Source: Dongia mobilis (GTDB lineage Bacteria > Pseudomonadota > Alphaproteobacteria > Dongiales > Dongiaceae). From it: 39,736 bases of DNA. How positions within the stretch are numbered: the stretch's first letter is position 1; every line of letters begins with the position of its first letter. The position numbers and the translations under genes are program-made. Below the pieces are notes generated by a model. The model saw nothing but the letters and a program-made list of their open reading frames with translations, ran no database searches and was not told the DNA's origin. The stretch covers positions 1 through 39,736 of the forward strand of contig NZ_CAMDRA010000012.1 of the NCBI RefSeq assembly GCF_945906275.1, in the 5' to 3' direction. This document shows positions 2,588 through 31,415 of this stretch, piece by piece.

Positions 2588-2606
2588 CGTGCCGAAATCC
2601 GGCACG
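2588..2606. repeat. 7-bp inverted repeat between hicA and the structured region
   Basis: CGTGCCG (2588-2594) and CGGCACG (2600-2606) are exact inverted copies around AAATC. It sits between the putative hicAB operator and the rightward promoter at 2644. It could be a second regulator site or a hairpin in the hicAB leader; nothing distinguishes these. Confidence 0.4.
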
Positions 2607-2643
2607 CGAAGTCGCGTCGCTCTATATTGTTCCTATTTTGTTC

Positions 2644-2673
2644 TTGACAGTCAATCTAGGAATGTGATATTAA
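2644..2673 (+). promoter_or_regulatory. strong sigma-70-type promoter reading into the hairpin region
   Basis: A perfect -35 box TTGACA (2644-2649) and a -10 box TATTAA (2668-2673) are 18 bp apart, preceded by the AT-rich stretch TCTATATTGTTCCTATTTTG that would suit an UP element. Transcription would begin near 2680, about 35 bases before the long helix arm at 2715. No translatable gene with a ribosome site follows, so the product would be an untranslated RNA. Confidence 0.55.
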
Positions 2674-2714
2674 TAGCGCTCACCACCCAACAGCCGATGC
2701 GCGGCGGGACGCTA

Positions 2715-3156
2715 CCGTGCATCTGCAATCATTCGGTTGTCTCCGGCGCAGGATCGCGGGGTTTCTCGATGGCTTCGGCCGGCTGAGAGGGCCTGCGCCG
2801 AAGGCCGGTTGCAGTATCTCCGCCTCGGAAGGGGCGGGGGCAGAAAAGGCAGGGCCGGCGCCTCGAAGACCGGCCCCCATGGATCCGCAGGGATAGCGGG
2901 TCTCCCCGGAATCGCTGGGATAACGATTCCCGCCGGATGCGCGCGACAGCGTGTCCCGCCGGATCCTGCGCGACAGCGGATCCCGACGAACCCAGCGCGA
3001 CAGCGGGTTCCCACGGACCGCACGGATAACGGTTCCCCCCGGACCCTCGGGAGAATGGGTCCCCTGGATCGGCAGGCATCCCGAGCAAGACGCGGCGGCG
3101 GCACGGCCGAAAGGCCCTGCAGCCGTGACGCTGCCCGAATGATTGCAGATGCGCGG
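2715..3156 (+). ncRNA. candidate large structured RNA closed by a 22-bp helix
   Basis: The 22 bases at 2715-2736 are the reverse complement of 3135-3156 except for one pair that becomes a G-U wobble in RNA (T2718/G3153); the core is GCATCTGCAATCATTCGG. Inside lie successive hairpins: a stem 2739-2752/2792-2805 enclosing a GGC-TTCG-GCC tetraloop hairpin (2771-2780), 2818-2824/2833-2839, GGGCCGG/CCGGCCC (2852-2876), the eight-unit tandem array (2881-3081), GGCC-GAAA-GGCC (3105-3116) and GCAGC/GCTGC (3119-3134), which abuts the closing arm. Both tetraloops (UUCG, GAAA) are of stable RNA type only when read on the + strand, the strand served by the promoter at 2644. No Rfam family known to me matches. 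A transposon-like element with terminal inverted repeats is the main alternative, but no target duplication flanks it. Confidence 0.55.
2881..3081 (+). repeat. tandem array of eight covarying hairpins, 25-27 bp period
   Basis: Units begin at 2881, 2908, 2935, 2961, 2988, 3015, 3041 and 3066 (27, 27, 26, 27, 27, 26, 25 bp, last one partial). Each is an arm, a loop, the complementary arm and a 3-4 base linker. Arms differ but stay paired: GGAATCG/CGATTCC, GGATGCGC/GCGTGTCC (two G-U), GGATCC/GGATCC, GAACCC/GGGTTC, GGACCC/GGGTCC. Units 1-6 share the loop consensus GAYARC on the 3' side, in a GGATAAC form and a GCGACAGC form. Unequal unit lengths break any reading frame, so the repetition is not kept for a protein. 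Confidence 0.8.
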
Positions 3157-3170
3157 ATCAATCACCTGAA

Positions 3171-3192
3171 CCGGCCAGGATGACCTGCCCGG
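3171..3192. repeat. hairpin just past the structured region
   Basis: CCGGCCAGG (3171-3179) and CCTGCCCGG (3184-3192) pair with one mismatch around ATGA. Its place 15 bases after the closing arm would suit a transcript end, but no T-run follows, so it is not a standard intrinsic terminator. Confidence 0.35.
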
Positions 3193-3196
3193 CAGC

Positions 3197-3228
3197 ACAG
3201 CCGTGTCAGAACAGCCGTGTCAGAACAG
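3197..3228. repeat. 14-bp direct repeat, 2.3 copies
   Basis: ACAGCCGTGTCAGA is present twice head to tail (3197-3210, 3211-3224) followed by ACAG. It is followed by a CAGGCC/GGCCTG hairpin (3226-3247). The repeat lies between the structured region and the stop of the CorC-type gene; its role is unknown. Confidence 0.7.
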
Positions 3229-3260
3229 GCCCGGCAACAGCGGCCTGCGAGCTCCGTTGC

Positions 3261-4601
3261 CTATGACGCCTTGTCGATGGCGACCTTCTTCTCGTCGCCC
3301 ACCCTATCCACCAGCACCTTGTCGATGCGGCGGCCGTCGAGATCGACCACTTCCAGGCGGAACCCGTTATAGGTGACGCTCTCGCCCACCCGGGGCACGC
3401 GGCCCAGCCGGTGCAGCACCAGGCCGGCCAAGGTGCTGTAATCCGAATGCACGAATCCGCTAGCGCCGATCTTGCGCTCGACATCGATGAGGCGCGTGCG
3501 CCCGTCGATCAGCCACGAGCCCGCGCCGCGCGCGGCGATGGCGTCGACGGCATCCTCTTCCTCCGACATCTCGCCGGCGATCACCGTGAAGATATCGGCC
3601 TGGGTCACGATGCCTTCGACGCTGCCATATTCATCGAGCACGATGGCAACCCTGGTCGGGGCATGGCGGAAGAGTTCCAGGAGCCGCAGGATCGTGGTCG
3701 TCTCATGGAGGGTGAGGGGAATCTTCACGCACAGCTGCGGGTCCATCTTCTGGCCCGTCGCCAGCTGCTGCAGCAGATCCTTGGCATCCACCACGCCCAG
3801 CACTTCGTCGACATTGCCCTGGCACAGCAGCAGCCGCGAATGGCCGCTGGCGATGACATGCTGCAGCGACACCTCGGCCGGGTCGTTGACGTCGATCCAG
3901 TCGATATCCGGGCGCGGCGTCATGATGCTGCGGATCGAATAATCGGCCAGGTGCAGCACCCGGTCGATCATATAGCGCTCTTCCTCGTCGAAGACACCGC
4001 TCTCGGCGCCCTCTGCCACCATGGTCTTTACTTCTTCTTCGGTCACCTGCGTGTCCCGGTCGCCGCTCAGTCCGATGAGGGTGAGGATCGCGTTGGTCGA
4101 AAGCCGCAGGATCATCACCAGCGGCGCGCCGATCTTGGCGATGAGCGCCATCGGCAGGCTGACGCGCATCGCGATCGCCTCGGCATGGTTCATGGCGATG
4201 CGCTTGGGCACCAGTTCGCCGATGATGAGCGACAGATAAGTGATGCTGGCCACCACCAGGGTCACCGCGACCTGATAGGCGTAATCGGCGATGAGCGGCC
4301 AGTCGCCGAGTGCCCGCGCCAGCGGCGCCGACAAGGTGGCCCCCGAATAGGCGCCGGCCACGACACCCACCAGCGTGATGCCGATCTGCACCGTGGAAAG
4401 GAACATGGTCGGATCTTCGGCCAGTTCCAGCGCCTTCCTGGCCCCACGATGGCCGGCATCGGCGATGGGCTTCAGCCGCGCGCGCCGCGCCGAGACGATG
4501 GCCAGCTCCGACATGGCGAAAAAGCCATTGAGCAGCACCAGCAGGAGAACAATGAAAATCTCAAACCACAAAGACGTGTCTTCGACGGGAATCTCGGTCA
4601 T
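3261..4601 (-). CDS. CorC/HlyC family membrane protein (DUF21-CBS-CorC_HlyC)
   Basis: A 446-residue inner-membrane protein of the hemolysin-family/CNNM type, members of which are tied to magnesium or cobalt efflux and resistance. Residues about 10-185 form the DUF21 domain with hydrophobic segments near 13-31, 68-88, 108-128 and 148-175 and the conserved GELVPKRIA; residues about 225-345 hold the CBS pair (MTPRPDIDWI, VLDEYGSVEGIVT); residues about 358-438 the C-terminal CorC_HlyC domain. Length and order are full. It starts six bases after the stop of the Crp/Fnr gene upstream, so the two are an operon. The ion carried is not readable. Confidence 0.9.
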   Translation of the reverse strand: MTEIPVEDTSLWFEIFIVLLLVLLNGFFAMSELAIVSARRARLKPIADAGHRGARKALELAEDPTMFLSTVQIGITLVGVVAGAYSGATLSAPLARALGDWPLIADYAYQVAVTLVVASITYLSLIIGELVPKRIAMNHAEAIAMRVSLPMALIAKIGAPLVMILRLSTNAILTLIGLSGDRDTQVTEEEVKTMVAEGAESGVFDEEERYMIDRVLHLADYSIRSIMTPRPDIDWIDVNDPAEVSLQHVIASGHSRLLLCQGNVDEVLGVVDAKDLLQQLATGQKMDPQLCVKIPLTLHETTTILRLLELFRHAPTRVAIVLDEYGSVEGIVTQADIFTVIAGEMSEEEDAVDAIAARGAGSWLIDGRTRLIDVERKIGASGFVHSDYSTLAGLVLHRLGRVPRVGESVTYNGFRLEVVDLDGRRIDKVLVDRVGDEKKVAIDKAS

Positions 4602-21295: not shown

Positions 21296-21374
21296 ATACG
21301 GTCACCCAAAAGTCGGCAAATGGCTCGCTCTGGGGTCCGCAGCCTTGAGATTCCACTCTTGAGAATCCCTGGCG

Positions 21375-21429
21375 GCCCTTTAGCGAGTTCTTTTACGTGG
21401 CTGCAAGCCGGCCGGCCAAATCACCACGG
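21375..21429 (-). promoter_or_regulatory. SAM-II riboswitch (metA motif)
   Basis: Read on the minus strand from 21429, the stem arm CGTGG, TGATTTGGCC, CTTGCAG, the closing arm CCACG, TAAAAGAACTC and GCTAAAGGG come in the order of the SAM-II aptamer, whose conserved TGATTT, TTGCA, CACG-TAAA and GCTAAA blocks are all present. SAM-II is typical of alphaproteobacterial metA and metX leaders; bound S-adenosylmethionine forms a pseudoknot that lowers expression. A GATTC/GAATC hairpin lies between it and the metA start. Confidence 0.93.
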
Positions 21430-21654
21430 AATGCTTCTATTTAACCGAACGGGCACCCAAGCTACAATACCATTCATCATGCGTTGATGGCCGCCCAGGG
21501 CGGCGGTTCAAGCACGTCGTAGGGCATTTTGCCGCATAATGCGGGCGAATTTGCCCCTCCGCGTCATGGTCCGCCGTCGGCGAATGCCGACAATTGTCGG
21601 CTGTGGCGAAGGATGATGGCTAGGGCTTTACCGTAGCGTGGAAGGGACCCCCTC

Positions 21655-31386: not shown

Positions 31387-31415
31387 TTTATGTTCCATCA
31401 ATGTTCCAAAGTCAA
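31387..31415 (-). promoter_or_regulatory. promoter of the 28-residue peptide gene
   Basis: On the minus strand TTGACT (31410-31415) and CATAAA (31387-31392) are 17 bp apart. The spacer carries GGAACAT twice (GGAACATTGATGGAACAT), a possible direct-repeat regulator site. Confidence 0.55.

Follow-up and report, generated by a model that had tools for sequence, protein, structure and literature searches.

The stretch from 2715 to 3156 of a Dongia mobilis contig (NZ_CAMDRA010000012.1) raises the question of whether two distant complementary arms and the hairpins between them make up an RNA, and what such an RNA would do. The window, i.e. the whole stretch of DNA analysed, comprises 39,736 nucleotides, and all parts of the element lie on its + strand. 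An earlier note had proposed a new large structured RNA at this place. The proposal is supported, with no Rfam family at its gathering score over the element and with compensatory changes in the homologues, although the note did not recognise the pseudoknots, the LexA-type operator or the presence of many copies. Judged from the comparison of copies, the region is almost certainly a conserved gene for a non-coding structured RNA. The preferred reading, with a probability of about 0.6, is that the RNA would be repressed by LexA, induced by DNA damage and active in trans as a multivalent rod of pseudoknots, most likely as a protein platform or decoy.

The 5′ arm (2715-2736) and the 3′ arm (3135-3156) pair at all 22 positions with a single G-U, and the 22-bp closing helix described in the earlier note is real. 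The arms are the longest uninterrupted inverted pair at a spacing of up to 700 nt in the whole window. Folding of the + strand between 2700 and 3175 gave -250.3 kcal/mol, compared with -224.7 ± 6.7 kcal/mol for 100 shuffles (z -3.81, none of the 100 as low). Inside the closing helix, the first-hairpin domain (2743-2808) is followed by a hairpin without linker-loop pairing (2817-2840) and by the hairpin GGGCCGG/CCGGCCC (2852-2876), both taken from the hairpin listing. A hairpin CACGGC...GCCGTG (3102-3127), seen by eye and in the fold, lies before the 3′ arm and carries the GAAA tetraloop (3109-3112), which the note had pointed out together with a UUCG tetraloop (2774-2777); both are present in the sequence. 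The row of units that occupies the interior is absent from the minimum-energy fold of 2700-3175, a method that cannot draw pseudoknots.

Comparison of six copy pairs showed that reading frames across the element are not conserved: 72 of 91 gaps have lengths that are not multiples of three, and the substitutions per codon phase sum to 108, 103 and 86 (with the element start as the origin; individual pairs are uneven). These gap lengths and substitution phases rule out a coding gene. A 5′ leader of a neighbouring gene is unlikely, because the next gene in the window, a CNNM/CorC gene at 3261-4601, runs on the opposite strand. Upstream of the RNA promoter, a HicB-like antitoxin gene (1797-2288, - strand) also runs opposite to the RNA; a small gene recognised by eye at about 2340-2537 is probably its partner. 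A known Rfam RNA is ruled out for the element: in the whole window, only a SAM_alpha riboswitch (21360-21437, - strand, 76.7 bits) reached a gathering score, and the permissive scans of 2600-3200 and 16 related loci returned only rows far below gathering scores, mostly of miRNA families.

A sigma-70-type promoter on the + strand (2644-2671), aligned with those of the other copies, consists of TTGACA at 2644-2649 and a second hexamer that ends at 2671, with a match of 10 out of 12. It confirms the strong promoter that had been proposed, and the predicted start near 2680 agrees with the distance of about 35 bases from the arm that the note gave. A search for an intrinsic terminator of the window RNA gave none. 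The operator GTTCCTATTTTGTTC (2629-2643), an exact GTTC-N7-GTTC, lies over the -35 of this promoter. The LexA site of Caulobacter is given as GTTCN7GTTC (PMC4211646, PMC9578287), and an exact GTTC-N7-GTTC at the promoter, as in the window copy, is the mark of the LexA regulon in Alphaproteobacteria. The pattern stands upstream of lexA in all six Dongia genomes with a lexA match over the cut-off, in exact form, about 150-170 bases from the lexA match and on the opposite strand. For recA, an exact box was found upstream in only one of seven loci (L110 in G004), one of the other six being a gene cut short.

All five copies found without the box pattern have the box, with one mismatch in C162; besides the window copy these are C162, the G003 copy, L013 and L014, which were found through BLAST or the neighbouring gene. 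Among 33 distinct promoters, both GTTC half-sites are exact in 24 and one letter is off in nine, with a varying spacer, a count that is biased because most of these promoters were collected with the box pattern itself. L014 has an intact box and a decayed -35. It is thus highly probable, judging from the operator, that LexA represses the RNA and that DNA damage induces it: because the operator overlaps the -35, LexA would keep the strong promoter off until damage releases it.

A second exact GTTC-N7-GTTC lies at 31392-31406 (+ strand) of the window; a pair of matches is in line with chance, at 23 of 100 shuffles. The same operator-promoter also precedes a set of Dongia proteins with a common N-terminal pattern (L061, L067, L071, L077, L084, L087, L090, L091 and L094). 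No Pfam match was obtained for L067 and no NCBIfam match for L061 and L067, and proteins of this type are possibly further members of the damage regulon. Box-preceded proteins were also observed in other genera of the bacterial family (L092, L096 and L099), of which L092 matched a lytic transglycosylase domain of Pfam below the threshold and L096 an NCBIfam entry far below it.

The family comprises about 37 copies in five of seven Dongia genomes, with no copy in G002 and G004. BLASTN over 96 genomes showed one congeneric relative (G003) and, within the own genome, one further copy (C162). The G003 copy adjoins the same CNNM/CorC gene as in the window, with a CorC protein 93% identical, and tracing of CorC through the bacterial family showed the RNA in a third genome (L013 in G001) and a decayed copy in a fourth (L014 in G006). 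The promoters of the first copies have GTTC-N7-GTTCTTGAC or a near-variant in common. A search of 17 genomes with GTTC-N7-GTTCTTGAC and one mismatch allowed, for which the reversed-pattern control gave 0-5 hits per strand, showed many further RNA copies and also protein genes with the same box.

The distribution was assessed with two covariance models. Model R1 covers the first-hairpin region, about 80-135 nt downstream of the box start and with the box excluded, and was trained on 11 copies. In 17 genomes of the bacterial family it showed 29 matches of at least 27 bits, all in Dongia (17 in G001, nine in G006, two in the own genome and one in G003). All 29 are among the box-pattern hits and no strong copy lacks the box, an agreement that is only partly independent because the training copies were all found through the box. 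The window copy has a low score, 27.4 bits (E 0.0025), owing to a first hairpin that differs from the family consensus. The remaining 15 rows have 21-24 bits; one is a copy with a box that is cut by a contig end, and the other 14 are taken as chance. Model R3 covers two consecutive units, with training stretches from the own genome, G001 and G006, and with C162 and five G005 matches outside the training. All of its 27 matches in the 17 genomes lie in Dongia; 24 are known copies and three are new truncated ones, two of them at G005 contig ends and one in G001, 5′-truncated and without a box. As to the alignments, A2 holds 11 of 24 distinct core sequences, picked because they could be aligned; the window, C162, G003, L013 and L014 are among the copies outside it (the core set itself excludes L063, L069, L086, L088 and L089), and A3 holds 13 two-unit stretches hand-picked from 22.

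Over a sample of 385 genomes of the class, R3 showed 20 matches, all in Dongia. R1 matched eight non-Dongia genomes of this sample at 23.9-30.5 bits (E up to 0.01, about four expected). Inspection by eye attributed these eight, together with six weak matches in or near the bacterial family, to chance, and none of the 14 loci has an exact box. Spread beyond Dongia is rejected on these grounds, and on present sequence comparison the family has no credible match outside the genus in the 385 genomes sampled. No match was obtained for the window element in plasmids, for the L062 element in phages or for two exact element patterns in viral contigs, and a phage or plasmid origin is set aside on this basis.

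At four places, different species have retained a copy next to the same gene: the corC place, with a copy in four genomes, one of them decayed, and three places shared by G001 and G006 (L064/L075, L073/L083 and L065/L076). Besides these conserved places, the sequences indicate recent duplication or gene conversion, since several G001 copies are nearly identical and a contig end is no more than about 0.6 kb away for 13 of the about 37 copies. The RNA is hardly essential, because two of the seven Dongia genomes have no copy and decayed copies occur (L014, L060 and L184). The earlier note had named mobile copies with no conserved fold as a case against a structured RNA; the copies turned out to be dispersed with the fold kept.

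The same observations bear on a selfish or domesticated dispersed element, in which the fold would serve spread and the LexA-type promoter would couple activity to DNA damage. The 17 strong copies in one genome, the near-identity of several, the position of copies near contig ends, as is usual for repeats, and the truncated copies L184 and L060 are in line with such an element. However, the four places shared across species speak against pure mobility, fold and operator are kept in divergent copies, and phages, plasmids and the two viral-contig patterns gave no match, so that this explanation is unlikely.

Several side observations concern individual copies. In the G005 copy L086, a 27-nt unit with CCCGGCGGCATTTGCCGCCAT forms four head-to-tail repeats near the 5′ end (starts at 418, 445, 472 and 499), which is a recent unit expansion; one such unit is present in L089. 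Large inverted repeats of the CCCTCTCCCTAACCCTCCCCC type, seen by eye, lie near several RNA copies (L006 at about 3178-3300, and downstream in L062, L064, L075 and L080). In L184, the 5′-truncated RNA copy stands directly behind a lipoyl transferase-like sequence, again by eye.

Covariation, which the earlier note had suggested as a check, was found in the closing stem, the first hairpin and the interior. For the closing stem, 11 distinct arm pairs from 14 copies (L055 placed through its known 3′ arm, L057 left out) showed 90.9% of cells paired compared with 78.4% for shuffled 3′ arms, a value reached in none of 2000 shuffles. Both sides are changed in 22 cells, compared with 6.6 expected (none of 2000), whereas the number of further pair types, 18 compared with 15.2, is not exceptional (133 of 2000). 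The first hairpin has four outer and five inner pairs around a conserved 4x4 internal loop (RCAR/GCAG), with 98% of cells paired compared with 89.4% and a covariation of 0.408 compared with 0.217 (none of 500 shuffles).

The separate hairpins into which the earlier note had resolved the interior are only partly borne out: the stems are present, but most of them are not plain hairpins and are better read as pseudoknots. In the hairpin listing the interior stems mostly have 6-8 bp, the loops often contain GG-W-N-A, and C-rich linkers lie between the stems. The linker 5′ of a stem is complementary to the loop of that same stem, often as CCC with GGG. Variants of the linker/loop pair are CGC/GCG in the window, CCGC/GCGG in L062 and L068, CCUG/CAGG in G003 and L073, UCCG/CGGA in L057, and CCUC/GAGG and CCAU/AUGG in L085. 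A covarying pairing of a loop with a strand outside its stem, as observed here, is the mark of an H-type pseudoknot. Pairing of the loop with the linker after its own stem is ruled out, because no bases would remain to span the stem.

The pairing was examined in 95 distinct units from 17 of 34 copies, with the seven bases before each stem, which may overlap the end of the preceding stem, taken as the linker. The summed linker-loop complementarity is 867.6, compared with 762.5 ± 19.4 when loops are re-dealt (none of 2000) and with 785.7 ± 16.9 when they are shuffled within molecules (none of 2000), and a three-pair helix score is reached in 80 of the 95 units compared with 54.8 expected. The excess persists in the 66 units other than CCC/GGG (569.8 compared with 498.3 ± 15.9, none of 5000). 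With true linkers only (45 units between neighbours, 15 copies), the sum is 394.4 compared with 334.7 ± 12.7, and a three-pair helix occurs in 38 of the 45 compared with 24.5 expected, each reached in none of 5000 shuffles. As a control, 398 like hairpins from elsewhere in the window, in five batches, showed no excess (z -0.83 to 1.33). The units are not independent, because the copies are related; tests reduced for kinship gave z 3.38 for ten copies (67 units, 5 of 5000) and z 3.63 for six divergent copies (44 units, 1 of 5000). Single molecules are mostly too small for significance (127 of 1000 for the window, 553 for C162, 844 for L065 and 747 for L089). With stretches aligned by sequence only, pairing reaches 94.9% in the second P1 helix, where each of the three pairs has changes in both strands, and 66.7% in the first.

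Pseudoknot units are backed by this covariation across copies and are clear in four of the eight window units. Units 2 (2904-2930, CCC with GGG), 3 (2931-2956, CGC with GCG, compensatory to CCC/GGG), 4 (2957-2983, CGC with GCG) and 7 (3036-3062, CCC with GGG) have a clear three-pair P1 with true linkers in the linker-loop test. Units 1 (2877-2903), 5 (2984-3010, a hairpin) and 6 (3011-3035) have only two linker-loop pairs; a third would form in unit 1 (CCC/GGG) if the preceding hairpin lends its last base, and in unit 6 (UCC/GGA) if the preceding stem lends a base. Unit 8 (3063-3086, CCUG with CAGG), placed by eye, has one stem mismatch and a G003 counterpart, CCTG/CAGG. Over the 80 scored units, P1 has 3-4 bp in 74 and S2 has 6-8 bp in 72, lengths that largely suit an H-type fold. 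The bases left to cross the stem number 1-4 in 66 of the 80 units and none in 14, the latter being awkward for an H-type fold. Overall, the comparisons support the RNA family and its predicted structure well, and the copies compared show a conserved, non-coding structure of the single strand behind a conserved operator-promoter.

The linkers also bear on an RNA-only assembly, that is, a homo-oligomer or cage formed by loop-linker pairing between molecules, as OLE, GOLLD and ROOL form RNA-only complexes (PMC12286853). The RNA is large, closed and branched, and the CCC linker of one unit could pair with the GGG loop of another. However, linkers fit their own downstream loop better than the other loops in the molecule, which favours local pseudoknots; among the 45 linkers between neighbours the downstream loop fits better in 30 and the upstream loop in seven, with eight ties. 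As the OLE, GOLLD and ROOL covariance models also gave no match in the window, in 2600-3200 or in the 16 loci, an assembly of this kind is distinctly improbable. A trans-acting antisense RNA, whose C-rich linkers and loops would pair with mRNA ribosome-binding sites after DNA damage, is a still poorer prospect: C-rich linkers are complementary to G-rich ribosome sites, and the trans-acting DNA-damage sRNA ChvR is known in Caulobacter (PMC6237742), but pairing with an mRNA would not call for the observed covariation of linkers and loops. An element that works purely at the DNA level, as a series of imperfect palindromes, would explain the repeated copies, and its hairpins could be extruded. It is scarcely credible, as the untruncated copies read have a conserved promoter directed into the element, linker-loop pairing makes sense only in a single strand, and unit-like hairpins number 60 on the promoter-sense strand compared with 30 on the other in nine copies (a biased count, since the finder requires a G-rich loop).

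In the preferred reading, the RNA would be the product of a stand-alone gene that belongs to a dispersed Dongia family. It would close through the long helix, within which the first hairpin with its conserved internal loop would be followed by the row of H-type pseudoknots, each unit consisting of a stem S2 of mostly 6-8 bp and a helix P1 of mostly 3-4 bp that the preceding linker forms with the unit's own loop. The units probably stack into a compact rod, because they are closely spaced and the linkers are used for P1. The row may act through shape and valency rather than through one antisense sequence, since stem sequences drift while the geometry is kept and the number of units varies. Action in trans is suggested by the position of the neighbouring window gene on the other strand. 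The retention of geometry and valency despite drifting stem sequences makes a multivalent platform or decoy, titrating a putative RNA-binding protein in the damage response, the most likely role, although this assignment is tentative and falls somewhat short of an even chance.

On the sequence evidence, the Dongia RNA does not belong to any RNA family tested. There is a slightly better than even chance that it represents a new bacterial RNA class, one that is LexA-controlled and present in many copies, holds as many as eight pseudoknots in tandem within a long closing helix, and acts through shape and valency in the damage response, e.g. as a protein decoy or scaffold. An array of up to eight units in variable number, with many genomic copies and a damage-type operator, has no counterpart in Rfam or in the open-licence literature searched, where titles and abstract starts gave no description of such an RNA. 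The copies also form a naturally occurring collection of tandem pseudoknots that already contains compensatory changes, which makes it useful for structural studies.

Sponge RNAs of the CsrB/RsmZ type consist of a row of hairpins with a recurrent loop motif. The Dongia RNA resembles them in this respect and, in the best reading, in a sponge-like action. However, its units are pseudoknots and its loop motif is variable; many loops lack the GGA of these sponges, e.g. GCGACA, AGGTGA and GCGGTGAC. Consecutive pseudoknots stack in the upstream domain of tobacco mosaic virus. This upstream pseudoknot domain (PMC4683447) shares the consecutive arrangement with the Dongia RNA. It is an element of a viral 3′ UTR, whereas the Dongia RNA is a free-standing bacterial RNA.

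To our knowledge, few bacterial RNAs carry several consecutive pseudoknots, and tmRNA is the standard case. The likeness to tmRNA lies in a bacterial RNA with several pseudoknots; the tmRNA model gave no match in the Rfam scans of the window, of 2600-3200 and of the 16 loci. tmRNA has four pseudoknots in E. coli, and two small tandem ones replace pk4 in some Cyanobacteria (PMC1168896), whereas the Dongia RNA has up to eight units with freely varying stems and a multi-copy gene. LexA-regulated sRNAs are not new as such, as IstR2 of E. coli is repressed by LexA and a list of 113 predicted sRNA loci with putative LexA boxes appeared in 2008 (PMC2527527). In contrast to the Dongia RNA, neither these nor the damage-induced ChvR of Caulobacter (PMC6237742) are described as a pseudoknot array in the available excerpts of the reports. 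The mitomycin-induced sRNA genes of Caulobacter are reported to have no SOS box nearby (PMC6237742), and the Dongia family suggests that the SOS response has an RNA arm in the group for which such sRNAs without SOS boxes were reported. The likeness to OLE, GOLLD and ROOL drawn in the earlier note holds in general terms, all being large, elaborate, bacterial and non-coding, but does not extend to family membership, for which the covariance models gave no match. Compared with these RNAs, the Dongia RNA has a row of small pseudoknots in one closing stem, a LexA-type promoter and many copies in one genus.
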